DNA of 64,000 nt from Beijerinckiaceae bacterium (GTDB taxonomy: Bacteria > Pseudomonadota > Alphaproteobacteria > Rhizobiales > Beijerinckiaceae), in the NCBI GenBank assembly GCA_027532775.1, contig JAPZTO010000001.1:868001-932000 (forward strand). The letters run 5' to 3'. Numbering within the stretch: position 1 is the stretch's first letter; every line of letters starts with the position of its first letter. Shown piece by piece: positions 1 to 45,105 of this stretch. The translations under genes were made by a program, and so were the position numbers. The notes below the pieces were generated by a model that was not told where the DNA came from, ran no database searches, and saw nothing but the letters and a program-made list of their open reading frames with translations.

Positions 1-2139
1 CATTTCGGCGATCTCGCCCGCCCGGAGGACCCGATCCGGAGCCCCGTGCCGCTGAATTACTCGTTCCGGACAAGCCCGGACCTGCTTGAACTTGTCGACA
101 GGATCTTCGCCCATCCCGAATTCCGTTCGGGCGTCGCGCTTTCGGGCGAGGCGGTGGCGCATCAGGCTGCCTGGCCTGATTTCCCCGGCGAGGCCGAGCT
201 CTGGCCCATTATCCGGCCGCCCATTCCCGATCTCGCGCCCCCGGGCCCGCGGCAGCCGCCGGAACAGGTGCTGGCGGAGAAAGTCGCGGCGACGATTCGC
301 GGCTGGATCGACAGCGGCCAATGCCACCTGCGCGACGGCAAGCCCATCGAGCCGGGCGACGTGCTGATCCTCGTCCGCGAACGCGGCCCCTTCTTCGAGG
401 CGATGCTGCGTGCCCTGAAACGGCGGGGGCTTCCGGTCGCCGGGGCGGACAGGCTGACGCTTCAGGATCATATCGCCGTGCAGGACCTGCTGGTCGTGGC
501 CGAGGCGGTGCTGAGCCCGGGTCATGACCTTGCGGTGGCAACGGCGCTGCGCAGCCCGTTTTTCGGGGTCGATGAACCAACGCTGGAAGCCGTCGCCCGG
601 GGCCGGCCAGGGCCGCTCTGGGATGCCGTGCAGACCCATCCTGCGCTCGGCGAGGTGGCCCGCACGCTCGGGCGCCTTGCCCGGCAAGCGCGGCGCATCG
701 GGCCCTATGCCTTCCTTGCCGGGCTGCTCGGCGGAACGGTGCCCGACGGATCGGGGCGAACGGGGCGCCAGTCGCTGGAAGCGCGGCTGGGCTCGGACAT
801 GCATGAACCGGTGGATGCGCTGCTGCAGGAGGCGCAGGCGTTCGAGAGCCGCGAGACCGCCTCGCTGATGCTGTTCCTGCTCGACCAGCGGAAGCGCAGC
901 ACCCAGATCAAGCGCGACATGGATTCGCGCAGCGGCCTGATCCGCGTGATGACCGTCCATGGCTCCAAGGGTCTCGAAGGGCGGATCGTCTTTCTGTGCG
1001 ACACCATGCGGCCGCCGAAAACCGCGCGGAAAAGTGACCCGATCCTTCTTCGGGACGCGACCGGGCCGCTGCTCGGCTGGCTGGGCTCCGATCTTGAAAG
1101 GCAACCTGGCTTCGATGTCGTGACGGCGGCGATAGACCGGAAACAGCGGGAGGAGGCGCGCCGGCTGTTTTACGTGGCGATGACGCGGGCTTCTGACCGC
1201 CTCATCCTCGGAGGATTCAACAGGAGGCCGCCGCCCGAGAAGGAAATCAAGGCCGGGCAGGAACACCCGATGGACGATGCTGACCGCGCGACATGGTACC
1301 AGATGGCGCGGGACGGGTTCGCCCGGCATCCGCGCGTGGTGATCACGCCCGATCCCGATGCCGAGGCCATGGGCCTTGAGGGGCTGGGCCGCAGCGTGAT
1401 GCGGATCCCCCCCGCGCGCCTTCCCTCCGGAGGGGAGTTGGCGCGCCCGGGGCTGCCGGCACGGGAAAACGCCGCTCCGGCGACGCTGCCCGGCTGGCTG
1501 CTTGCTGCGCCACCCGTCGAGGAAAAGCCGCGCGGGCGGCTGGTTCCGTCCGGGCTGGCAGGGCCCGAACAAGCCGGGCCGGAACGCGTGGCCGGGCCGC
1601 TTTCGCCGCGGGAACGCGGCATCCTGCTCCATCGCCTGTTCGAGACGTTGGCGCCGGTGCCGGAACCGCAGCGGGCCGAAGCCGGTCGACGCTGGATCGA
1701 GCGGGCGGTGCCGCATCTGGACGCTGCGGTTGCGGACCCGCTTCTCGCCCCGGTCCTCGGCATGCTGGCTCACCCGGATATGGCCCTCTGGTTCGCGCCG
1801 GGCTCCCGGGCAGAAGCGGCGATTGCCGGTTTTGTCCGGTTGGCTGATGGCGAAGCCTACCCGGTCGAGGCGCGGCTCGACCGGTTGAGGGTGACGGAGG
1901 AGCAGGTTGCGTTCCTCGACATCAAGAGCGGCTGGCGTGGCGAGCGGCTCGGCGCCGGCATCCTCCGGCAGATGGCCGTCTATGCCAACCTGCTGGAACA
2001 GCTCTACCCGAAAAGGGCAGTGATTGGCGCGATCCTCTGGACGCGGACCATGACTCTGGAACCGCTTGACCCCGCCCTTTTGCGGAACGCGCTGGCCGAG
2101 ATTGCTCCCCCGACGCCGCGGGATGACGGCCTGCCTTGA
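1..2139 (+). CDS. addA: Double-strand break repair helicase AddA, 3' part (5' end outside the window)
   Basis: The open frame enters from base 1 without a start codon, so only the last 712 residues are present. This is the C-terminal half of an AddA-type UvrD/Rep-family helicase-nuclease that processes double-strand DNA ends for recombination together with AddB. Visible are SF1 motif V ([20 protein letters not shown], about residue 315), motif VI ([17 protein letters not shown], about residue 390) and, near the C terminus, a RecB-type nuclease core with the spaced acidic residues of VEARLDRL and FLDIKSGW. The N-terminal Walker A region must lie upstream. addB is expected just upstream in this lineage but is not in the window. 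trxA follows 61 bases downstream on the same strand. Confidence 0.95.
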
Positions 2140-34465: not shown

Positions 34466-35068
34466 GTGATCCCGGCTGCCAAGCTTTCCGTCCTGATTAT
34501 CGACGAGAACCGGGTGCGCGCTGCGATCATCGAAGCGGGTCTGCGCGAAGCCGGGCACGAGAGAGTGACCATCCTCTCCGACATGCAGGGGCTGATGCGC
34601 CAGATCGTCGAGCTGTCGCCAGATGTGATCGTGATCGATCTCGAAAACCCGAACCGGGACCGGCTGGAGCATCTGCTCCAGATGAGCCGCGTTGTGGACA
34701 AGCCGATCGCGATGTTCGTCGACCAGTCCGACAGCAGCATGATGGAAGCGGCGATCGAGGCCGGCGTTTCGGCCTATGTGGTGGATGGCCTCCGGCAGGA
34801 CCGGGTGAAAGCGATCATGGACATGGCCATTGCCCGGTTCAATGCCTATTCCCGGCTTCGGTCGGAACTGGAAGGCACGCGTCAGGCGCTGGAAGACCGC
34901 AAGGCCGTGGACCGGGCGAAGGCCATCCTGATGAAGACACGCGGCATGAGCGAGGACGAGGCGCATCACCTGCTCCGGCGGACCGCCATGCGCGAGAACC
35001 GCCGCATGGGCGATGTCGCCCGCGCGCTGATCGGCAGCGCGTCCCTGATCCTGGGAGATCGCGAATGA
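34466..35068 (+). CDS. nasT: ANTAR-domain response regulator NasT
   Basis: A 200-residue protein with an N-terminal receiver-like domain (LSVLIIDENRVRAAII, Asp in DVIVIDLENPNRD) and a C-terminal ANTAR RNA-binding domain (RKAVDRAKAILMKTRGMSED, then AHHLLRRTAMRENRRMGDVA). NasT binds two-hairpin leader RNAs and prevents termination in nitrate assimilation operons; NasS holds it when nitrate is absent. The start is a GTG, since no ATG gives the receiver domain's beginning. The stop overlaps the nasS ATG by 4 bases. The predicted RNA target is upstream of nrtA. Confidence 0.9.
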   Translation: MIPAAKLSVLIIDENRVRAAIIEAGLREAGHERVTILSDMQGLMRQIVELSPDVIVIDLENPNRDRLEHLLQMSRVVDKPIAMFVDQSDSSMMEAAIEAGVSAYVVDGLRQDRVKAIMDMAIARFNAYSRLRSELEGTRQALEDRKAVDRAKAILMKTRGMSEDEAHHLLRRTAMRENRRMGDVARALIGSASLILGDRE

Positions 35069-36228
35069 AGGCCCCCATCCGCCTCGGCTTCATCCCGCTG
35101 ATCGACGCCTCGATTCCCATCGTGGCCGCCGACAAGGGCTTCGCTGCCGCCGAGGGGCTTGAGATCGAACTCGTCCGCGAGACCTCCTGGGCCAATATCC
35201 GCGACCGGCTGGCGATCGGCCATTTCGATGCTGCGCATATGCTGGCGCCGATGCCGGTGGCGGCCGCCCTCGGCCTGACGCCGCTGGACGTGCCCGTGGT
35301 CGCCGCCATGACGCTCGGCGTCGGCGGCAATGCCACCACGGTGTCGGAAGCCCTCTGGCAGGCCATGCTGCGCGTGGCACCGGATGTCGTCGCCAATGAT
35401 GCGAAATCGGTCGGCCGCGCGTTGCGCCTCGCCCTGCGCACCTGGCCGGGCGGCAAGCCGACCCTCGCGGTGGTGCATCCGCATTCCTCGCACAATTACG
35501 AATTGCGCTATTGGCTCGCCGCGTCCGGTATCCAGCCCGGGCGGGATATCGAACTGGCGATCCTCGCGCCGCCGCTCATGCCCGACGCGCTGGCCAGCGG
35601 AAGCCTCGACGGGTTCAGCGCCGGCGAGCCGTGGAGCAGCCATGCCGCCCGGCGCTTCGGCGGCCGGATCATCCTCACCAAATCGGCGATCTGGCGTGAC
35701 GGGCCCGAGAAGATCCTCGGGCTGCGCGCGCCCTGGGCCAAAGCCAACCCGGATGCCGTGCAGGCGCTGCTGCGCGCCTGCCGCCGCGCGGCGACCTGGT
35801 GCGCCGACAAGTCGAATGCCGACGAGCTGATCGACATCCTCGCGGCGCCGGGCCGGCTGCACCTGCCGAAGGAGGATATTGCCGCGCCGCTGACTGGAAA
35901 GATGCTGCTGGCCGATGGAAGGCGGCACCAATTGCAGGATTTCCTCGTCTTCGGCGGCGGCGAAGCCAATGCGCCGCGGCGGGAAACGGCGATCTGGTTC
36001 CTGACGCAGATGGCGCGCTGGGGCCAGACAACCCTGTCGGACGAGGCGCGGCGCCGGGCGGAAGGCTCCTATGCGCCGGAACTCTTCGCCGAATCCGGCG
36101 GCCGGGCCGAGCCTTACCGGATGGCGCCGATCACCGGGTTGTTTGACGGCGAGGTGTTCCAGCCTGCCGATTCGGAGGCCTATCTCGCGCGGCAGATCCT
36201 GCGCGACCAGCGACAGGACCCTGCCTGA
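35065..36228 (+). CDS. nasS: Nitrate sensor NasS (CmpA/NrtA-fold protein)
   Basis: A 387-residue CmpA/NrtA-fold protein without a signal peptide: it starts directly with the ligand-binding fold IRLGFIPLIDASIPIVAADK, and continues with HPHSSHNYELRYWLAASG and FSAGEPWSSHAARRFGG. The lack of a signal peptide marks a cytoplasmic sensor, NasS, rather than the transporter-binding protein (nrtA, the next gene, has a Tat signal). NasS sequesters NasT without nitrate or nitrite and releases it when they bind. It overlaps nasT by four bases. Confidence 0.9.
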   Translation: MKAPIRLGFIPLIDASIPIVAADKGFAAAEGLEIELVRETSWANIRDRLAIGHFDAAHMLAPMPVAAALGLTPLDVPVVAAMTLGVGGNATTVSEALWQAMLRVAPDVVANDAKSVGRALRLALRTWPGGKPTLAVVHPHSSHNYELRYWLAASGIQPGRDIELAILAPPLMPDALASGSLDGFSAGEPWSSHAARRFGGRIILTKSAIWRDGPEKILGLRAPWAKANPDAVQALLRACRRAATWCADKSNADELIDILAAPGRLHLPKEDIAAPLTGKMLLADGRRHQLQDFLVFGGGEANAPRRETAIWFLTQMARWGQTTLSDEARRRAEGSYAPELFAESGGRAEPYRMAPITGLFDGEVFQPADSEAYLARQILRDQRQDPA

Positions 36229-36370
36229 TTTTTCGGCATGATGCATTGCAGCATGGCGCTTGGGCCGAAAAGGATTCCGGTGCCAACCGGGATGACTGCG
36301 CTGCATCTGGAATCCTAACAACCTGAATCCATTCCAGAATCAGTGAAAAATCGGGTTGACCGCAGGACTT
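36229..36370. promoter_or_regulatory. nasS-nrtA intergenic region with dyad elements
   Basis: This stretch upstream of the -24/-12 element holds several inverted repeats: TTTTCGGC/GCCGAAAA (36230-36237 and 36264-36271), AGGATTCC/GGAATCCT (36271-36278 and 36309-36316), and ATGCATTGCAGCAT (36239-36252). It is the position where NtrC-type enhancer sites would lie for a sigma-54 promoter, but none matches the NtrC consensus convincingly. Confidence 0.4.
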
Positions 36371-36385
36371 GGCACGAAAGGTGCT
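36370..36385 (+). promoter_or_regulatory. Sigma-54-type -24/-12 promoter of nrtA
   Basis: The sequence TTGGCACGAAAGGTGCT matches the RpoN consensus TGGCACG-N4-TTGC(A/T) at all but one of the strongly conserved bases (GTGC for TTGC). The essential GG at 36371-36372 and GC at 36383-36384 are 12 bases apart, the exact required spacing. The predicted transcript start is near 36396, right at the first hairpin of the leader. This would place nitrate uptake under general nitrogen control (NtrC). Confidence 0.8.
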
Positions 36386-36394
36386 GTCTTTGTC

Positions 36395-36497
36395 TCAAGC
36401 CAATGTCGGCTTGAAGTCAGTTTTCACCCGAACGGGTATTCGGCAACGCCGCCGGCCAGCCCTCCTCGCCTCGAGGAGATCGCTGCCGGCGGCTTTT
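36395..36497 (+). promoter_or_regulatory. NasT-responsive two-hairpin antitermination leader with intrinsic terminator
   Basis: Hairpin P1 (36395-36414): 7-bp stem TCAAGCC/GGCTTGA, loop AATGTC. Hairpin P2 (36441-36454): stem CGGC/GCCG plus one G-U pair outward, loop AACGCC. Both are hexaloops with A at position 1 and G at position 4, the ANTAR recognition signature. The terminator (36448-36497) is GCCGCCGGC/GCCGGCGGC with an inner TCCTCG/CGAGGA stem and TTTT; its 5' arm overlaps P2, so P2 and terminator exclude each other. NasT bound to P1-P2 should let RNA polymerase through into nrtA. The linker holds a small ACCCG/CGGGT hairpin. nrtA starts 38 bases after the T-run. Confidence 0.88.
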
Positions 36498-36534
36498 CAT
36501 TTCAACGGCCCCGCGCCGCCAGAGGAGAGCAAGG

Positions 36535-37848
36535 ATGACGTCGAAGGTTCTGACCAGCAGGGACCCCGTGGCCACCCGCCGTGATATCCTGAAACTGGGT
36601 GCCGCTGCCGGCGCGACAGCCGCCGCCGCGCGGCTCGCCTTCCCCGGCGGCGCCTTCGCGCAGGGCACCGGGCCGGAAGTGAAGGGCACCAAGCTCGGCT
36701 ATATCGCGCTGACCGACGCCTCGCCGCTGATCATCGCCAAGGAGAAGGGCTTTTTCGCCAAGCATGGCGTGCCGGATATGGATATCGCCAAGCAGGCCTC
36801 CTGGGGGGCCACGCGCGACAACATGGCCCTCGGCACCAAGGCGAACGGCATTGATGGCGGGCATATCCTGCGGCCGAAAACCCATCTCTATTCGACCGGC
36901 AAGGTCATGCAGAACAACCAGCCCTTGCCGATGTACACGCTGCTCAACCTCAACGAGGATTGCCAGGCGATCTCGGTTTCGAACGAGTTCAAGGACCTGA
37001 CGGTCGGCACCGATGCCTCGGCACTCAAGGAGGCCTTCGCCAAGAAGCGCGCCAGCGGCAAGGAAGTGAAGGTCGCCATGACCTTCCCCGGTGGCACGCA
37101 TGATCTCTGGATCCGCTACTGGCTGGCTGCGGCCGGCATCGACCCGGACAAGGATGTGTCGACCATCGTCGTGCCGCCGCCGCAGATGGTGGCGAACATG
37201 AAGGTCGGCACGATGGATGCCTTCTGCGTGGGCGAGCCGTGGAACGAGCAGCTGGTCAACCAGAATATCGGCTTCACGGCCTGCACGACGGGTGAGGTCT
37301 GGTTCAAGCATCCGGAAAAGATTCTCGGCATGCGCGCCGATTGGGTGGATGCCAACCCGAAAGCCACGCAGGCTATCCTGATGGCCACGATGGAAGCCCA
37401 GGCCTGGTGCGAGAAGATGGAGAACAAGCAGGAAATGGCCGAGATTGTCGGCCGCCGGCAATGGTTCAACGTGCCGGTGCCGGACATTATCGGCCGCATC
37501 AAGGGCGACATCAATTACGGCCGCGGCAAGGTGGCCAATGGCACCAACCTGCTGATGAAGTTCTGGGGCAAGTCGGGTGAGGTTTCCTATCCCTGGAAGA
37601 GCCTCGATACCTGGTTCATCACCGAGAATATCCGCTGGGGCAAGTTCGAGCCGACCACCGATATCAAGGCGCTCGTCGACAAGACAAACCGCTCGGATCT
37701 CTGGATCGAGGCGGCCAAGGGCCTCGGCCTGACCGGCTATCCGACGGGCGACAGCCGCGGCGTCGAGAAGTTCTTCGACGGCAAGGTTTTCGATCCCGCC
37801 GATCCGATGGGCTACCTCAAGTCCCTTTCCGTCAAGCGCATCGCCTGA
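36535..37848 (+). CDS. nrtA: Nitrate ABC transporter substrate-binding protein NrtA
   Basis: A 437-residue CmpA/NrtA-family periplasmic binding protein for nitrate or nitrite. The N terminus has a twin-arginine signal, ATRRDILKLGAAAGATAAAA, ending near GGAFAQG, so export is by Tat. Binding-fold segments include KLGYIALTDASPLIIAKEKG, PGGTHDLWIRYWLAAAGI and DAFCVGEPWNEQLV, parallel to the NasS sequence. GAGGAGAG before the ATG is a good Shine-Dalgarno sequence. It is the first structural gene of the nitrate operon, under the upstream leader. Confidence 0.95.
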   Translation: MTSKVLTSRDPVATRRDILKLGAAAGATAAAARLAFPGGAFAQGTGPEVKGTKLGYIALTDASPLIIAKEKGFFAKHGVPDMDIAKQASWGATRDNMALGTKANGIDGGHILRPKTHLYSTGKVMQNNQPLPMYTLLNLNEDCQAISVSNEFKDLTVGTDASALKEAFAKKRASGKEVKVAMTFPGGTHDLWIRYWLAAAGIDPDKDVSTIVVPPPQMVANMKVGTMDAFCVGEPWNEQLVNQNIGFTACTTGEVWFKHPEKILGMRADWVDANPKATQAILMATMEAQAWCEKMENKQEMAEIVGRRQWFNVPVPDIIGRIKGDINYGRGKVANGTNLLMKFWGKSGEVSYPWKSLDTWFITENIRWGKFEPTTDIKALVDKTNRSDLWIEAAKGLGLTGYPTGDSRGVEKFFDGKVFDPADPMGYLKSLSVKRIA

Positions 37849-37899: not shown

Positions 37900-38811
37900 A
37901 TGGCCGTCCCCGTGCAGAAGACCGACAACGTGACATCCCTTCCCAGCCCGAAGGCGAGCGCGAAGCCCGCCGAGATCGTCACCCTTCCTGCCCGCAAGAG
38001 CGAGGGGAACGGCAAGAAGGTCGTGGACCGGCTGAAGGGCATCGCCGCGACCACGGTACCGCCCCTCTTGGTGCTGGGCGTGCTCCTGCTGGTCTGGCAG
38101 ATCAGCTTTGCCCGCCCGGGCGCGAGCCTGCCCGCGCCGAGCGTGATCTGGGCCGAGGCGAAGGATCTCATCCTCGATCCGTTCTTCGTGATGGGCCCGC
38201 AGGATATTGGCCTGGGCCTCCGCGTTTTGACCTCGCTGGAACGCGTGGCGATCGGCTTCGGGCTGGCGGCGGTTGTCGGCGTGCTGCTCGGTGCGCTGGT
38301 CGGGCAGTCGATCTGGGCGACTCGCGGGCTCGACCCGATCTTCCAGGTTTTGCGCACCGTGCCGCCATTGGCTTGGCTGCCGATCAGCCTTGCGGCCTTC
38401 CGCGATGCCAATCCGAGCGCGATCTTCGTGATCTTCATCACCGCGATCTGGCCGATCATCATCAACACCGCTGTCGGCATCCGCAACATTCCGCAGGATT
38501 ACCGTAACGTGGCGCAGGTGCTGCGGCTGAACACGTTCGAGTTCTTCTTCAAGATCATGGTGCCCTCGGCCGCGCCCTACATCTTCACCGGGCTCCGGAT
38601 TGGCATCGGCCTTTCGTGGCTCGCCATCGTGGCGGCAGAAATGCTGACCGGCGGCGTCGGGATCGGCTTCTTCATCTGGGATGCGTGGAACTCGTCCAAG
38701 CTCTCCGACATCATCGTTGCGCTTCTTTATATCGGCGTTGTCGGCTTCGCGCTGGACCGCCTCGTCGCCGCGATCGGCAGCCTCGTCACCCGCGGCACCT
38801 CGGCCAGCTGA
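37900..38811 (+). CDS. nrtB: Nitrate ABC transporter permease NrtB
   Basis: A 303-residue inner-membrane permease of the BPD-transport (SsuC/TauC-like) family, with about six hydrophobic segments. After a polar N terminus of about 50 residues come TVPPLLVLGVLLLVWQISFA, the conserved block QVLRLNTFEFFFKIMVPSAA (the EAA loop that contacts the ATPase) and SWLAIVAAEMLTGGVGIGFF. It forms the channel for NrtA-delivered nitrate with the ATPase encoded 14 bases downstream. Confidence 0.95.
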   Translation: MAVPVQKTDNVTSLPSPKASAKPAEIVTLPARKSEGNGKKVVDRLKGIAATTVPPLLVLGVLLLVWQISFARPGASLPAPSVIWAEAKDLILDPFFVMGPQDIGLGLRVLTSLERVAIGFGLAAVVGVLLGALVGQSIWATRGLDPIFQVLRTVPPLAWLPISLAAFRDANPSAIFVIFITAIWPIIINTAVGIRNIPQDYRNVAQVLRLNTFEFFFKIMVPSAAPYIFTGLRIGIGLSWLAIVAAEMLTGGVGIGFFIWDAWNSSKLSDIIVALLYIGVVGFALDRLVAAIGSLVTRGTSAS

Positions 38812-38825
38812 GCAGGAGATTTCCC

Positions 38826-39620
38826 ATGCACGCCTATCTCAAGCTCGACCATATCGACAAAAGCTTCGTCCGGGGTGGCCAGACCACCGAAGTCCTCAAG
38901 GATATCAGCCTGACGATCGACCAGGGCGAATATGTCTCGATCATCGGCCATTCGGGGTGCGGCAAATCCACCCTGCTGAACCTCATAGCCGGGCTGACGC
39001 AGGTGACTGCAGGCGCCGTGTTGCTGGAGAACCGCGAGGTCAATGCGCCGGGGCCGGAACGCGCCGTGGTGTTCCAGAACCATTCGCTGCTGCCCTGGCT
39101 GACCGTCTACGAAAACGTGAAGCTGGCGGTCGACAAGGTGTTTTCCGGCAAGAAGAGCCGGACCGAACGACATGACTGGATCATGGCCAATCTCGATCTG
39201 GTGCAGATGGCCCATGCCAGGGACAAGCGCCCGTCGGAAATCTCCGGCGGCATGAAGCAGCGCGTCGGCATTGCCCGGGCTTTGGCCATGGAGCCGAAGA
39301 TCCTGCTGCTGGACGAGCCTTTTGGTGCGCTGGACGCGCTGACCCGCGCCCATCTTCAGGACAGCGTGATGGATATCCATGCCCGGCTGAAGAACACGAT
39401 GATCATGATCACCCATGATGTCGACGAGGCCGTGCTGCTCTCGGACCGGATCGTCATGATGACGAATGGCCCGGCCGCCCGGATCGGCGAGGTGCTGGCC
39501 GTTGACCTGCCGCGGCCGCGCAAGCGCCTCGATCTGGTTTCGGACAGCCGCTACATCGCAGCGCGCGAAGCCGTGCTGCGGTTCCTGTACGAGCGTCACC
39601 GGCTCGTCGAAGCGGCCTGA
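38826..39620 (+). CDS. nrtD: Nitrate ABC transporter ATP-binding protein
   Basis: A 264-residue ABC ATPase with Walker A IIGHSGCGKSTLLNLIAGLT, Q-loop VVFQNHSLLPWLTVYENVK, signature SEISGGMKQRVGIARALAM and Walker B KILLLDEPFGALDALTRAHL, then the H-loop MIMITHDVDEAV. It has no C-terminal NrtA-like regulatory domain, so it matches NrtD rather than the fused NrtC. The frame is open upstream inside nrtB; the ATG chosen gives the usual start. Gene order nrtA-nrtB-nrtD then nirB indicates one operon. Confidence 0.93.
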   Translation: MHAYLKLDHIDKSFVRGGQTTEVLKDISLTIDQGEYVSIIGHSGCGKSTLLNLIAGLTQVTAGAVLLENREVNAPGPERAVVFQNHSLLPWLTVYENVKLAVDKVFSGKKSRTERHDWIMANLDLVQMAHARDKRPSEISGGMKQRVGIARALAMEPKILLLDEPFGALDALTRAHLQDSVMDIHARLKNTMIMITHDVDEAVLLSDRIVMMTNGPAARIGEVLAVDLPRPRKRLDLVSDSRYIAAREAVLRFLYERHRLVEAA

Positions 39621-39630
39621 GGAGCGGATC

Positions 39631-42084
39631 ATGGCCAAGCAGAAACTGGTTGTCATCGGGAATGGCATGGCGCCGGGCCGCGCGCTCGAGAAGCTCCTCG
39701 AGCTGGCGCCGGATGCCTACGAGGTGACGATCTTCAACGCGGAATCCCGCGTGAACTACGACCGGATCATGCTCTCGCCGGTCCTCTCCGGCGAGAAGAC
39801 CTTCGAACAGATCGTGATCCATGGCGATGGCTGGTACATTGATAACGGCATTACGCTTTACAAAGGCCACAAGGTTACCGAAATAAACCGCAATACCCGG
39901 ACGGTAACCTCCGAGCATGGCGAGACGGCTCCCTACGACAAGCTGATCATCGCCACCGGGTCCAACCCGGTAATCATTCCGGTGCCGGGGCACCAGCTCC
40001 CGGGCGTTCTGACCTACCGCGATCTCGACGATGTCCACGCCATGATGCTCGCCGCAAAATCGCGCGGGAAGGCTGTGGTGATCGGCGGCGGATTGCTGGG
40101 GCTAGAGGCCGCTGCAGGCCTGCAGGCGCAGGGGATGGAAGTCGTCGTTCTCCACCTGATGCCGACGCTGATGGAGCGCCAGCTCGATCCGGCTGCCGGG
40201 TATCTCCTCCAGAAGGCCGTCGAGGCGCGCGGCATCAAGGTGCATTGCAAGGCGAATACCCACGAGATCACCGGGATGGACCGGGTGACAGGCGTACGCC
40301 TCGATGACGGCACGATCTATCCGGCCGATCTCGTTGTCATGGCCGTGGGCATCCGCCCGAATGCCGCCCTCGCCAAGGCGGCCGGGCTGGAGGTCAACCG
40401 GGGCATCGTCGTCAGCCCGGACATGCGGACCTCCGATCCCCATATCTTCGCGCTCGGCGAATGCGCGGAAGCCTCGGGCCAGGTCTTCGGCCTTGTCGCC
40501 CCCCTCTATGACATGGCGGGCGTGGTGGCGAAGCAACTGACGGGGGATGCCACGGCCGCCTTCAGCCCGCAGGCCACCGCGACCAAGCTCAAGGTCACAG
40601 GGATCGACCTCTATTCCGCCGGTGATTTCGGCGATGCCAAGGACCGCGAGGAGATTGTCCTCCGTGATCCGACACGCGGTGTCTACAAGCGCCTTGTCCT
40701 GAAGGACAATATCCTCATCGGCGCGGTGCTCTACGGCGATACCGGCGACGGCCCGTGGTTCTTCGACATGATCAAGCGCGGCACCGACATCTCGGAGATG
40801 CGGGAAACGCTGATCTTCGGCCAGGGCTATCAGGGGGGCGCCCTCGCGGACCCTATGGCAGCCGTTGCAGCCTTGCCGGATGAGGCGGAGATCTGTGGCT
40901 GCAACGGCGTCTGCAAGGGCAAGATCACCACGAAAATCACCGAACTCGGGCTGACCAGCCTCGACGAGGTACGCGCCCATACCAAGGCCTCGGCCTCCTG
41001 CGGCTCCTGCACGGGGCTGGTCGAGCAGGTGATCAAGCTCAGCCTGGGCGACAGCTACAACCCCGCCGCCGTCCAGCCGATGTGCGGCTGCACCGATCTC
41101 GGCCATGACGATGTCCGCCGGCTGATCAAGGCAAAGGCGCTGAAATCGATTCCGGCGGTCATGCAGGAACTGGGCTGGAAGAGCTCCTGCGGCTGTGCGA
41201 AATGCCGGCCAGCGCTGAACTATTACCTGATCTGCGACTGGCCCGGCGAATACGAGGATGATGGCCAGTCCCGCTTCATCAACGAGCGCGTCCACGCCAA
41301 TATCCAGAAGGATGGCACCTATTCGGTCGTACCGCGGATGTGGGGCGGGCTCACCAGCGCGAAGGAACTCCGCGCGATTGCCGATGTGGTCGACAAGTTC
41401 GCCATTCCCACGGTGAAGGTCACCGGCGGGCAGCGGATCGACCTGCTGGGCGTGAAGAAGGAGGATCTTCCCGCTGTCTGGTCGGATCTCAACCAGGCGG
41501 GGATGATCTCCGGTGCGGCCTATGCCAAGGGGCTGCGCACGGTGAAGACCTGCGTCGGCACCGACTGGTGCCGGTTCGGCACCCAGGATTCCACGGGCCT
41601 CGGCGTGAAGATCGAGAAGTTCATGTGGGGCTCCTGGACGCCGGCCAAGGTGAAGATGGCTGTTTCCGGCTGCCCCCGGAACTGCGCTGAATCGACCTGC
41701 AAGGATGTCGGCGTGATCTGCCTCGATTCCGGCTACGAGATCCATTTCGCCGGCGCGGCCGGGCTGGACATCCATGGCACGCAGGTTCTCGGCCATGCGA
41801 AGACCGAGGAGGAGACAATCGAGATCATCGCGGCGCTGACCCAGCTCTATCGCGAGCAGGGCCGCTATCTCGAGCGCATCTACAAATGGGCGAAAAGGGT
41901 CGGGACCGACTCGATCAAGCAGGCGATCATCGAGGATACGGAACGGCGTCGCGTGCTGTTCGACCGGTTCGTCTACAGCCAGAGCTTCGCGCAGATCGAC
42001 CCCTGGGCCGAACGCGTGGCCGGCAAGGATGCGCATGAATTCGCGCCGATCGGCACGCTCAGCCTGCCTCAGGCGGCGGAATAG
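39631..42084 (+). CDS. nirB: Assimilatory NAD(P)H nitrite reductase, large subunit
   Basis: NirB (817 residues) reduces nitrite to ammonium with NAD(P)H, FAD, Fe-S clusters and siroheme. Order of domains: FAD/NAD oxidoreductase (LVVIGNGMAPGRALEKLL; VVIGGGLLGLEAAAGLQAQG around residue 150), BFD-like [2Fe-2S] regions (CGCNGVCKGKITTKI with ASCGSCTGLVEQ at about 430-470 and a second CGC cluster), then the sulfite/nitrite reductase part, with siroheme-Fe4S4 cysteines in VKTCVGTDWCRFGTQDS and VSGCPRNCAESTCKD (about residue 630-690). GAGGAG precedes the ATG. Confidence 0.95.
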   Translation: MAKQKLVVIGNGMAPGRALEKLLELAPDAYEVTIFNAESRVNYDRIMLSPVLSGEKTFEQIVIHGDGWYIDNGITLYKGHKVTEINRNTRTVTSEHGETAPYDKLIIATGSNPVIIPVPGHQLPGVLTYRDLDDVHAMMLAAKSRGKAVVIGGGLLGLEAAAGLQAQGMEVVVLHLMPTLMERQLDPAAGYLLQKAVEARGIKVHCKANTHEITGMDRVTGVRLDDGTIYPADLVVMAVGIRPNAALAKAAGLEVNRGIVVSPDMRTSDPHIFALGECAEASGQVFGLVAPLYDMAGVVAKQLTGDATAAFSPQATATKLKVTGIDLYSAGDFGDAKDREEIVLRDPTRGVYKRLVLKDNILIGAVLYGDTGDGPWFFDMIKRGTDISEMRETLIFGQGYQGGALADPMAAVAALPDEAEICGCNGVCKGKITTKITELGLTSLDEVRAHTKASASCGSCTGLVEQVIKLSLGDSYNPAAVQPMCGCTDLGHDDVRRLIKAKALKSIPAVMQELGWKSSCGCAKCRPALNYYLICDWPGEYEDDGQSRFINERVHANIQKDGTYSVVPRMWGGLTSAKELRAIADVVDKFAIPTVKVTGGQRIDLLGVKKEDLPAVWSDLNQAGMISGAAYAKGLRTVKTCVGTDWCRFGTQDSTGLGVKIEKFMWGSWTPAKVKMAVSGCPRNCAESTCKDVGVICLDSGYEIHFAGAAGLDIHGTQVLGHAKTEEETIEIIAALTQLYREQGRYLERIYKWAKRVGTDSIKQAIIEDTERRRVLFDRFVYSQSFAQIDPWAERVAGKDAHEFAPIGTLSLPQAAE

Positions 42085-42092
42085 GAGGGGCC

Positions 42093-42446
42093 ATGAACGC
42101 GATGACGGCAGAATGGATCGATGTGGGCGCAGAGGCGGATATCCCCTTGCGCGGCGCCCGCGTGGTCCGGAGCCTGGCAGGCGATATCGCGGTCTTCCGT
42201 GCAGCGGATGGCACAGTCTTCGCCCTGCGCGACCGGTGCCCGCACAAGGGTGGGCCGCTCAGCCAGGGCATCGTGCATGGGCATGGCGTAACCTGCCCGC
42301 TGCATAACTGGGTGATCAGCCTCGAAACCGGCGAGGCGCAGGGCGCCGACCACGGCTGCACGCCGAAAATTCCGGTATTGCTCGCCGACGGGCGGGTGCT
42401 GCTCGATGCCCAAGCCATCGCGCGGCTTGCGGTGCCCCATGGCTGA
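42093..42446 (+). CDS. nirD: Nitrite reductase small subunit
   Basis: NirD (117 residues) is the Rieske-type partner of NirB. The Rieske ligand motifs are RCPHKGGPLSQG (Cys and His) and TCPLHNWVISLETGE (Cys and His), with the right spacing, so a [2Fe-2S] cluster is likely held, unlike some NirD proteins that lack the ligands. The start follows nirB by eight bases and the end overlaps the nasA start by eight, so the three are translationally coupled. Confidence 0.95.
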   Translation: MNAMTAEWIDVGAEADIPLRGARVVRSLAGDIAVFRAADGTVFALRDRCPHKGGPLSQGIVHGHGVTCPLHNWVISLETGEAQGADHGCTPKIPVLLADGRVLLDAQAIARLAVPHG

Positions 42447-45105
42447 AACGGCGGCGGGCCCGACCACGCGGACAACCTGCCCCTATTGCGGGGTCGGCTG
42501 CGGGGTTCTGGCCACGCCGCAGGCGGATGGCAGCGTGGCGATTGCCGGTGATCCGGACCATCCGGCCAATTTCGGGAAGCTCTGCTCGAAAGGCACCGCG
42601 CTCGGCGCGACACTGGGAATGGAGGGGCGGCTCACGCATCCCTCGATCCATGGACAGCGGGCCAGCTGGAATGGGGCGCTTGACCTCGTGGCGCGCCGCT
42701 TTTCGGAAACCGTGGCGGAGCACGGCCCGGATTCGGTGGCGCTTTACGTCTCGGGGCAGTTGCTGACGGAGGATTACTACGTCGCCAACAAGCTGATGAA
42801 GGGCTTTATCGGCACCGCCAATATCGACACGAATTCCCGCCTCTGCATGGCCTCCTCGGTGGCCGCCCATCGCCGGGCCTTCGGCAGCGACACGGTGCCG
42901 GCGCTCTATGACGATCTCGACGAGGCCGATCTCGTTGTGCTGGTCGGTTCGAATTTCGCCTGGTGCCATCCGGTCCTGTTCCAGCGCCTGCTGGCCACCC
43001 GCGAACGCCGGGGCACGCGGATCATCGTCATCGATCCGCGCCGGACCATGACGGCCGAGGCGGCGGACCTGCATCTTCCGCTCGAACCGGACAGCGATGC
43101 CGCGCTCTTCCTCGGTCTGCTCCGCCATCTCGAGGCGGATGGGCTGGCCGACACGGCCTATCTCGATGCCCATGTCTCGGGTACGGAAGCCGCGCTCGTG
43201 GAAGCCCGGTCCCTGCCGGTCGCCCGTGTGGCCAGCCTGACCGGGCTGCCGCCCGAACAGATCCGCGCCTTTTACGAGGCCTTTGCCCGCACGCCGCGTA
43301 CGCTGACCATCTTCAGCCAGGGCGTGAACCAGTCGGTCCGGGGCACCGACAAGGCCAACGCGATCATCAACTGCCATCTCTATACCGGGCGGATCGGCAA
43401 GCCGGGCGCGTCGCCCTTCTCGATCACCGGGCAGCCCAATGCGATGGGCGGGCGCGAGGTCGGCGGCCTCGCCAACATGCTGGCCGCGCATATGAATATC
43501 GAAGACGAGGCTGCGCGCGAACGCGTCCAGCGCTTCTGGCAGTCTCCGACAATGGCCGCGAAGCCGGGCCTGAAGGCTGTCGATCTGTTCGATGCCGTGC
43601 TCGACGGCCGGATCAAGGCGCTGTGGATCATGGCGACAAACCCGGCCGATTCGCTGCCGGAAGCCGGGCGCATCGATGCCGCGCTCATGGCCTGCCCCTT
43701 CGTCGTGGTCTCCGATATCCTGACCGAGACCGACACGACCCGCCATGCCCATGTGCTGCTGCCGGCGCTCGGCTGGGGCGAGAAGGATGGGACGGTCACG
43801 AATTCGGAGCGCCGCATCTCGCGCCAGCGTGGCTTCCTGCCGCCACCGGGTGAGGCCCGCGCCGATTGGTGGGCTTTGGCCGAGGTGGCGAAGCGAATGG
43901 GCTTTTCGGGCTTCGAATATCCTAATGCAGCAGCGATCTTCCGCGAGCATGCCGCCCTTTCGGCGTTCGAGAATGGCGGCACGCGCGATTTCGATCTCGG
44001 CGGCGTCGCGACTATCAGGGATGACGCCTTCAACGAGATGGCCCCGTTCCTCTGGCCGAAACCTGCCGATGGGCCGGAAGGCGGGCGCTTCTTCGCCTCG
44101 GGCGGGTTCTTCACGCCGGATCGCAGGGCGCGGATGGTCGCCGTCGCCCTGCCGCCGGAAACCAAGCCGAGAGATGCCGAGAACAATCTCTGGCTCAATA
44201 CCGGCCGTATCCGCGACCAATGGCATACGATGACGCGGACCGGCCGGGCGCCGGCCCTGTTGGGCCAGTTCGGCGAGCCTTTCGCCGAAATCCACCCGGA
44301 TGACGCCGCGGCGGCGGGCATCGCGCCGGCCGATCTCGTCCGGGTTCGTTCGCGCCATGGAGAGGCCGTCGTCCGCGCCATGGTCACCCCGCGCCAGCGC
44401 CGGGGCTCGGTCTTCGTGCCGATCCACTGGACGGATCGCTTTGCCAGCAATGGCCGAATCGACAAGCTGGTCGACCGGATGACCGACCCGGTTTCCGGCC
44501 AGCCGGGACTGAAGCGCACGCCGGCCCGGATCGAGCGCTATCAAGCGCAATGGTTCGGTTTCGCGGTGACAGCGCGCCGGCCGGAGCCGCCGCCGGGAGC
44601 CTACTGGGCGATCGCGCCGGTCGAGGGCGGCTATCGCATCGAGATGGCGGGGGAGACGCCGCTCGCCGATCCGCAATTCATGGCCGCACGCCTGTTCGGG
44701 CTGGCGGAAGACGAGGCGGAGTGGGTGGCGCTGCATGATCGCGAGGCCGGGCGGGCCCGCCTTGCCGCCTTCCGCGGGGAAGCACTGGTCGGGGCGCTTT
44801 TCCTCGCGCCGGAGCCTGTGCGGCTGTCACGCTCCTTTCTCGCCGAAGCGATCGGCGCTGCGCATTCCGCGGCGGAACGGTTCCGGATCCTTGCCGGGCG
44901 GGGCGGGGCGGACCAGCCCGATCGCGGCGCGATCGTCTGTGCCTGTTTCCAGGTCGGCGTGAACGAGATCCTCACGGCGATCCGCGAGGGCAAGGCTTCG
45001 GTGGAGGTTATCGGCGACGCGCTGAAGGCCGGCACCAATTGCGGCTCCTGCCGCCATGACATCCGGAGGATGCTCGATGAAAATCGCCTCGAGAAAGCCG
45101 GCTGA
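42439..45105 (+). CDS. nasA: Assimilatory nitrate reductase catalytic subunit
   Basis: NasA (888 residues) is a molybdopterin enzyme of the DMSO-reductase family that reduces nitrate to nitrite in the cytoplasm (no Tat signal). The N-terminal [4Fe-4S] site is TTCPYCGVGCGVLA with a later KLCSKGTALG; molybdopterin binding is spread over QLLTEDYYVANKLMKGFIG, INCHLYTGRIGKPGASPFS, GQPNAMGGREVGGLANML and the C-terminal molydopterin-dinucleotide domain (LNTGRIRDQWHTMTRTGRAP). The end adds a BFD-like [2Fe-2S] domain (IVCACFQVGVNEILTAIREG, TNCGSCRHDIRRML), typical of NasA types that take electrons from a partner directly. The first ATG in frame after nirD is used. Confidence 0.95.
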   Translation: MAETAAGPTTRTTCPYCGVGCGVLATPQADGSVAIAGDPDHPANFGKLCSKGTALGATLGMEGRLTHPSIHGQRASWNGALDLVARRFSETVAEHGPDSVALYVSGQLLTEDYYVANKLMKGFIGTANIDTNSRLCMASSVAAHRRAFGSDTVPALYDDLDEADLVVLVGSNFAWCHPVLFQRLLATRERRGTRIIVIDPRRTMTAEAADLHLPLEPDSDAALFLGLLRHLEADGLADTAYLDAHVSGTEAALVEARSLPVARVASLTGLPPEQIRAFYEAFARTPRTLTIFSQGVNQSVRGTDKANAIINCHLYTGRIGKPGASPFSITGQPNAMGGREVGGLANMLAAHMNIEDEAARERVQRFWQSPTMAAKPGLKAVDLFDAVLDGRIKALWIMATNPADSLPEAGRIDAALMACPFVVVSDILTETDTTRHAHVLLPALGWGEKDGTVTNSERRISRQRGFLPPPGEARADWWALAEVAKRMGFSGFEYPNAAAIFREHAALSAFENGGTRDFDLGGVATIRDDAFNEMAPFLWPKPADGPEGGRFFASGGFFTPDRRARMVAVALPPETKPRDAENNLWLNTGRIRDQWHTMTRTGRAPALLGQFGEPFAEIHPDDAAAAGIAPADLVRVRSRHGEAVVRAMVTPRQRRGSVFVPIHWTDRFASNGRIDKLVDRMTDPVSGQPGLKRTPARIERYQAQWFGFAVTARRPEPPPGAYWAIAPVEGGYRIEMAGETPLADPQFMAARLFGLAEDEAEWVALHDREAGRARLAAFRGEALVGALFLAPEPVRLSRSFLAEAIGAAHSAAERFRILAGRGGADQPDRGAIVCACFQVGVNEILTAIREGKASVEVIGDALKAGTNCGSCRHDIRRMLDENRLEKAG

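Follow-up and report, generated by a model that had tools for sequence, protein, structure and literature searches.

A probable NasT-controlled antitermination leader with a wide, hairpin-containing linker behind a sigma-54-type promoter in an alphaproteobacterium

The 306 bases that separate nasS from nrtA in an alphaproteobacterial genome of 3.8 Mb very probably hold a NasT-controlled transcription-antitermination leader, which lies behind a sigma-54 promoter and carries its first hairpin, P1, at the predicted 5' end of the transcript. The leader is part of a stretch of 64,000 nucleotides, hereafter the window. An element of this known kind is by far the best explanation of the region and is well supported; from the comparisons given below we infer the start site, the activation by NtrC, the binding of NasT and the use of a middle hairpin as a spacer. 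What is new, and is put forward provisionally, is the wide, hairpin-containing spacing between the NasT-type hairpins, together with the occurrence of the recruiting loop at either of two places.

It is unsettled how an ANTAR dimer uses two hairpins, at once (Ramesh 2012, PMC3369931) or sequentially (Walshe 2022, PMC8934654), and both models, in the accessible portions of these articles, draw chiefly on EutV, and the EutV leaders tolerate only short linkers. Natural linkers of 25-39 nt that contain a hairpin, found beside relatives with gaps of at most 8 nt, offer a direct test of distance versus unpaired length. Linker caps such as the 2-25 nt used in an actinobacterial survey of ANTAR targets (PMC8164766, as far as its available text goes) can also make searches miss or misassign P1 in NasT leaders.

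The locus and its promoter

The features of the locus, all on the forward strand, are the following.

34466..35068, + strand: nasT, receiver and ANTAR RNA-binding protein (Pfam Response_reg and ANTAR; the GTG at 34466 is one candidate start)
35065..36228, + strand: nasS, nitrate-sensor-type NMT1_2 protein (Pfam NMT1_2; open reading frame)
36222..36238, + strand: possible NtrC box TGCCTGATTTTTCGGCA, over the nasS stop and 158 bases before the predicted +1
36370..36385, + strand: sigma-54 -24/-12 element TGGCACGAAAGGTGCT (consensus; kept in the leaders of the genus; RpoN encoded in the genome)
36396..36413, + strand: P1, 5'-end hairpin CAAGCC-AAUGUC-GGCUUG (6 bp, A1/G4 loop, C:G closing pair)
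36426..36437, + strand: middle hairpin ACCC-GAAC-GGGU within the P1-P2 linker (folding; pair changes in relatives)
36440..36455, + strand: P2, antiterminator hairpin UCGGC-AACGCC-GCCGG (A1/G4 loop)
36448..36493, + strand: intrinsic terminator hairpin (-35.7 kcal/mol), its 5' arm shared with P2
36494..36497, + strand: terminator U-run TTTT (sequence)
36535..37848, + strand: nrtA, nitrate-binding NMT1_2 protein (Pfam), followed by nrtB and nrtC
37900..45105, + strand: nrtB, nrtC, nirB, nirD and an assimilatory nitrate reductase-type gene (NCBIfam and family models)

The nasT and nasS genes overlap by 4 bases, and Pfam matches and open reading frames confirm them as the pair immediately upstream of the leader. 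The nasT product matches Rv1626, EutV, NasR and AmiR (phmmer) and is the one ANTAR protein of the genome, which also encodes a single sigma-54 (RpoN) and an NtrC above the NCBIfam cut-off. An ANTAR-type NasT that adjoins an NMT1_2-type NasS beside nitrate assimilation genes is the arrangement of a NasS-NasT system. Downstream, nrtB, nrtC, nirB and nirD match TIGR01183, TIGR01184, TIGR02374 and TIGR02378, respectively, over the NCBIfam cut-offs, and the reductase-type gene is matched below cut-off by formate dehydrogenase- and NasC-type models. A search of the plasmid collection gave no match. A second NrtA-like protein with 34% identity is encoded elsewhere in the genome (G000:C15:572734-573915, L002), and near it the covariance model R2, described below, has only unconvincing matches at E 1.9 or worse.

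In TGGCACGAAAGGTGCT, the GG at 36371-36372 and the GC at 36383-36384 are 12 bases apart, exactly as the preliminary description of this DNA had it, and the element is conserved in the leaders of the genus. It is the sole match to TGGCACN6TGCW in the 64 kb (0.21 expected; at least one match in 19 of 100 shuffles). Genome-wide, the pattern has 15 matches versus 27 for a reversed control, so that the motif alone is not significant; since it is not enriched, the evidence lies in its conserved position and not in the motif itself. Sigma-54 promoters start transcription about 12 bases after the -12 C. With the C of the GC counted as -12, the predicted +1 is 36396, the first base of P1, and the earlier remark that P1 begins at the predicted +1 is borne out by this count.

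The candidate NtrC box differs at one position from the published P. denitrificans box (PMC5424462, available text); it is weak and the sole NtrC-like box nearby. Matches to the box in the window are not above chance (5 versus 5.43 expected), and TGCCTGATTTTTCGGCA is kept at the nasS end of the relatives L005-L007. Also upstream of the promoter is an inverted repeat, AGGATTCC/GGAATCCT, at 36271-36278 and 36309-36316, which is perhaps an activator site. L004 keeps both halves, L007 has AGAATTCC/GGAATTCT at the same site, changed on both sides, and L005 and L006 do not have the repeat.

Leader hairpins and alternative folds

P1 is closed at its foot by C36396-G36413 and presents its loop at 36402-36407; a possible seventh pair, U36395-A36414, would fall at -1. 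The P2 stem consists of four G-C pairs and one G-U pair, and its loop occupies 36445-36450. As in dual-hexaloop ANTAR targets, the stems have at least 3 bp, the six-base loops carry A at position 1 and G at position 4 (A1/G4), and P2 overlaps the 5' arm of the terminator. The two loops proposed earlier, AATGTC and AACGCC, are correct base for base. So is the proposed sharing of the terminator 5' arm with P2 (36440-36455 versus 36448-36493): this arm is made of the last three P2 loop bases and the P2 3' arm. The linker, previously described as about 26 nt long with a small hairpin of its own, measures 25 nt, or 26 with a 6-bp P1; that description undersold the small hairpin, which is a conserved and covarying third element (p 0.095 versus shuffles in the window alone). 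The leader at 36396-36534 folds at -61.7 kcal/mol (z -3.58), a stability matched by one shuffle in 200.

Growing transcripts of the window were folded for 17 ends, at equilibrium and as RNA free of polymerase footprint and protein. The probability of P2 is 0.59-1.0 across the nine ends folded between 36455 and 36488 and is zero for ends from 36490 on, and the terminator replaces P2 once the transcript reaches 36490 or beyond. The folding of 36396-36500 that had been suggested as a check gives the same picture, the free fold reaching -52.0 kcal/mol versus -41.5 with P2 forced. As the terminator 3' arm emerges at 36490, where P2 drops to zero, the interval over which P2 has to be held by a protein spans about 35 nt of transcription. 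The middle hairpin has a probability of 0.78-0.99 in early and late transcripts and is outcompeted by another pairing for ends 36462-36475 (0.06-0.26), just when P2 is exposed, which argues against a rigid spacer. An extended middle hairpin that pairs with the P2 5' arm was dropped, the outer strand not being kept in relatives (by eye).

Conservation and covariation

NrtA was searched in 61 genomes, and 17 leaders upstream of NrtA matches with 64-100% identity were compared, 12 of them from the window's genus. The promoter, an A1/G4 P1 near +1, an A1/G4 P2 and an overlapping terminator are all present in 10 of these 12; in L011, of the same genus, the A1/G4 hairpin lies about 20 nt further in. 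Ten aligned genus leaders show no variation at A1, at G4 or at the closing C:G in either loop, so the conservation in close relatives on which the preliminary description had staked its reading is there. Upstream of nrtA, the genus member L010 (G010) keeps a sigma-54-like site and has no P1, P2 or terminator; its genome contains a single NrtA-type match, so that no NasS is seen there, and by its sequence L010 appears to be a natural loss of the switch. At L123 (G001, also of the genus, with NasS and a distant NrtA), the promoter is accompanied by GGCC-AACGAG-GGCC at +1, with no P2 and terminator by the rule used in the survey below.

Within the near clade (L001, L004-L007), the outer pair of the middle hairpin varies between A-U, G-U and G-C with the stem kept, and in other species of the genus the middle sequence is replaced and a hairpin is still present 1-3 nt before P2. 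Covariation was scored by pair counts on P1, the middle hairpin and P2, against shuffles that ignore relatedness. The genus alignment scores 0.264 versus 0.136 in shuffles (none of 500 reach it), and sliding gives at most 0.106; P2 hardly varies there (four of its five pairs never do) and therefore adds little. For 27 leaders outside the genus the score is 0.265 versus 0.173, above all 500 shuffles, and at most 0.102 when slid, with two of five pair measures weaker, their values being reached by 12 and 48 of 500 shuffles. RNAalifold applied to 12 diverse leaders found P1 and the middle hairpin unprompted, with compensatory change in 8 of 9 pairs; P2 was not found in these 12, where MAFFT had not lined it up.

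Covariance-model searches

The covariance search proposed earlier had a divided outcome. Model R2, built from seven other leaders (five of the same genus) and excluding both the window and its near-identical clade, places the window site first in the 3.8-Mb genome with 45.3 bits (E 1.1e-6), followed by a match with 27.4 bits (E 0.008). Model R1, built from 27 first-class leaders (defined below) outside the genus, 23 of them L053-L098 and mostly rhizobia by title, does not report the site up to E 10, its best matches in the same genome lying elsewhere at E 0.26. Over 31 further loci, R1 found L105, L096 and the close relative L005 (E 7e-4), found L013 only at E 0.18 and did not find the leader of L001. 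Our reading is that the model is biased by sequence, yet this is still a miss. Rfam has no match to the site at gathering scores, and a search up to E 10 adds no more than a chance match.

Two candidates for a second NasT target were rejected. The R2 runner-up is antisense inside a binding-protein gene, and ATCC-AACGGG-GGAT, which goes with a sigma-54-like site before a urea-type binding-protein gene, has a stem and loop that relatives do not keep (by eye). A TGGCAC site is found upstream of the urea-type binding-protein gene in 11 of 12 genus matches, L217 being the exception; in L156 (about 1470-1516, minus strand) a sigma-54-like site stands just before a urea-type ABC binding-protein gene, named by look.

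The NasT protein

The alignment of NasT with EutV spans nearly the full protein (E 2.8e-14), and the ANTAR domain of NasR aligns as well. The RNA contacts of EutV given in the available text of PMC8934654 are R142, K143, K147, K149, E160, Y164, R168, M172, N173, R175 and R177; seven of these 11 are identical in NasT, under an inferred chain-to-paper offset of 2 that fits every named residue. The differences are Arg for K147, His for Y164, Arg for N173 and Asn for R175. Tyr164 of EutV stacks on G4 (PMC8934654, same text). The corresponding residue is His165 in the window NasT; of the 93 rows of the alignment, 10 more have His and the remaining 82 have Tyr or Phe.

Survey of alphaproteobacterial leaders

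The survey combined the best 80 of 571 NasS relatives with 30 loci drawn from the 64 genomes, out of 385 in the class, that gave matches, neither set being random, and with the 17 nrtA leaders; after removal of four duplicates, 123 regions remained. By rule, an A1/G4 P2 that overlaps a terminator with a U-run is present in 92 of the 123 regions and absent from 31, some of which are unrepaired misses of the rule (L051 and L116 have G at loop position 1, by eye) and others real exceptions, e.g., L123. A sigma-54-like promoter accompanies P2 in 78 of the 92. In these 78, a partner A1/G4 hairpin lies at the 5' end only in 39 (the first class, to which the window belongs), next to P2 only in 19 (the second class), at both places in 16 and at neither in 4. 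The strict 5' rule gives 34 first-class leaders and 9 with neither; five leaders (L067, L071, L073, L086 and L089), whose A1/G4 5' hairpins have a 3-bp inner stem or suffer an edge effect, were moved by hand to give 39 and 4. L119, counted in the first class, probably belongs to both, because a partner stands directly before a second P2-like hairpin (by eye), like in its relative L050. Among the 14 leaders with no promoter match, 11 have the partner next to P2 and three, from Microvirga, have none there; one of the latter, L106, has an A1/G4 hairpin 25 nt before P2.

The two places are separated in distance. The gap from the 5' hairpin to P2 is 25-39 nt in 31 of the 34 strict first-class leaders (5, 58 and 76 nt in the others); for partners adjoining P2, all 46 gaps fall between -1 and 8 nt (35 leaders with a promoter, 11 lacking one). 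The rules allowed partner gaps of up to 12 nt and 5' hairpin starts up to +15, so the empty range of 13-24 nt was not imposed. In leaders with both partners, the 5' hairpin is 29-46 nt (eight leaders) or 110-168 nt (eight leaders) from P2. Fifty strict 5' hairpins start at -1 to +8, and all 50 have a closing C:G. A hairpin of at least 4 bp with an A1/G4 loop starting at -2 to +9 is present in 35 of 57 non-redundant promoter leaders; 300 dinucleotide-shuffled sets contain a mean of 0.53 and a maximum of 4, and none of the 15 alternative base combinations at positions 1 and 4 of the loop occurs in more than 2 of the 57.

The linkers of non-redundant first-class leaders have z<0 in 20 of 21 cases (mean z -2.06). 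The 5' segments of the second class do so in 17 of 19 (mean z -1.53; L126 and L128 do not fold), and their hairpins mostly lack an A1/G4 loop, some having UUCG (L036) or GNRA (L068, L094) instead. Because most 5' segments fold even in leaders whose sole A1/G4 partner adjoins P2, the 5' hairpin may serve an additional purpose, for example to shield the end of the RNA. The NasS tree, made with a quick method and with several long branches flagged, requires at least seven changes of the 5' state and at least eight of the middle state. The classes largely follow clades of this tree, so leader counts are not event counts and independent switching lacks statistical proof. The idea that the two A1/G4 positions are lost reciprocally was set aside, since the independent pairs (0 same, 2 opposite, 3 with no difference) cannot reach significance; the alternative positions are a pattern, not a proven trade-off. 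Residue 139 of NasT is A in 36 of 39 first-class leaders and E in 17 of 19 of the second class; an independent-pairs test gave no signal for a tie to leader class, and the difference was taken as shared descent.

Comparison with known systems

Statements on published systems are drawn from the accessible portions of the articles cited. The nasA leader of P. denitrificans (PMC5424462) also has nasT-nasS just upstream of a nitrate assimilation operon, and its hairpins HI and HII lie 137 and 91 bp upstream, compared with starts 139 and 95 bases before the nrtA ATG for P1 and P2. Loss of HI or of nasT abolishes growth on nitrate there, HI being essential and HII attenuating (PMC5424462). The two leaders were compared by description, and the available description of the nasA leader names neither a sigma-54 site nor a hairpin separating HI from HII; in P. 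denitrificans the NtrC box is placed before nasT, and the window candidate lies over the nasS stop. The eut leaders of E. faecalis likewise contain two A1/G4 hexaloop hairpins, the second overlapping a terminator (PMC3369931, PMC8934654), but their linker is 5-12 nt long (PMC3369931), with no inserted hairpin described in the available text of either article, versus 25-26 nt and a hairpin in the window. The ANTAR motif was defined with a variable linker between the two stems (PMC3369931), a definition that the window linker fits, although it falls outside the 5-12 nt of eut and at the edge of the actinobacterial 2-25 nt. The nasF leader of K. oxytoca shares the A1/G4 P1 and P2 and the nitrate signal (PMC3369936, PMC7496416) and differs in that NasR is one protein that senses nitrate and binds RNA, with no NasS-NasT pair; a C:G closing pair was selected by SELEX for NasR (PMC3369936, PMC7496416). 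In B. diazoefficiens, NasS-NasT controls nos read-through and a NasT-type hairpin is predicted before nirA; its NasT targets are respiratory as well as assimilatory (PMC6759348). The accessible article text covered by the literature search describes no NasT leader with a hairpin lying between P1 and P2 or with the partner at two alternative places.

Proposed mechanism and alternative explanations

Without nitrate, NasS would hold NasT, as is known in relatives; with no free NasT, P2 would form briefly, the terminator would overtake it and transcription would stop about 100 nt in. With nitrate, P1 would recruit free NasT shortly after the RNA emerges from the polymerase; NasT would then stabilise P2, blocking the terminator 5' arm and allowing nrtABC-nir-nas to be made. 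The folded middle hairpin would take up part of the 25-26 nt and leave about 13 unpaired bases. Such a leader would form a two-level gate, with nitrogen status acting through RpoN and nitrate through NasST. There is a little less than an even chance that a broader plan holds for alphaproteobacterial NasT leaders: three hairpins, with the A1/G4 recruiter at the 5' end or before P2, a middle hairpin in the window's class as a folded spacer that bridges a distance at which EutV fails, and several moves of the recruiter.

That failure counts against the antitermination leader as the best explanation, as do the His165 of NasT in place of EutV Tyr164, the miss by R1, the two weaker pair measures and the absence of P2 from the RNAalifold result. 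Eut linkers of 3 or 14 nt cause strong loss, 14 nt impairing EutV in vivo (Ramesh 2012, PMC3369931), and an addition of 20 nt abolishes EutV action in vitro (Walshe 2022, PMC8934654). The latter study found one hexaloop bound per EutV dimer, proposed hopping from P1 to P2 and reports that single hexaloops can be bound. The last point would suit a leader in which P1 is a mere stabilising or promoter-clearance hairpin at the 5' end, its loop incidental, and the target of NasT is P2 by itself or P2 together with the middle hairpin; second-class leaders, which mostly keep a 5' hairpin with a loop other than A1/G4 (17 of 19 with z<0), fit as well. A stabiliser, however, needs no A1/G4 loop, and the preference for this loop at the 5' end (35 of 57, other choices at most 2 each) and the closing C:G in 50 of 50 make this unlikely. 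The middle hairpin has a GAAC tetraloop here, and Met172 of EutV may exclude small loops (PMC8934654), which speaks against NasT binding to it.

The same hairpin might instead be the actual P1, its loop degenerate (CC-CGAACG-GG) and its position near P2 like that in EutV leaders, the 5' hairpin being spare. It does sit where 46 leaders have their A1/G4 partner, but no A1/G4 hexaloop occurs there in any of ten genus leaders, and across species its sequence and length vary freely with the hairpin kept, while P1 keeps A1/G4; we regard this as improbable. An ordinary attenuator, or a terminator at the end of nasTS, that is no NasT target and has a sigma-54 site by chance would agree with the absence of motif enrichment genome-wide and with the Rfam result. 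It can hardly be reconciled with the promoter, the A1/G4 loops and the P2-terminator overlap all being conserved across species and with the absence of P1, P2 and terminator from the genus member that has no NasS (L010), and we give it very little credence.

Other leader architectures

Seven Rhizobium leaders (L096, L099, L101, L105, L107, L109 and L111) have a 5' A1/G4 hairpin at the promoter and a complete P1-P2-terminator 110-168 nt later. Against R1, the 5' part scores 52 bits in L105 and 45 bits in L096; the arrangement looks like the addition of a second switch.

In leaders of the Bradyrhizobium type, which extend from nasS to a nirA-type gene (L112:6337-6510; also L088, L092, L104, L108 and L124), the hairpin CAGC-AACGAA-GCTG is found; the nirA-type gene of L112 matches Pfam NIR_SIR. 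By rule, the seven leaders of this type have no terminator with a U-run overlapping P2. Judging from complementarity and predicted folds, they look like a switch of translation, not of termination: AACGAAGC is complementary to AGGAGCUUCGUU over the Shine-Dalgarno site, the arm occurs in six of the seven leaders (not in L091, and imperfectly in L104), and in the MFE fold of L112 a second copy of AACGAAGC hides the Shine-Dalgarno site.
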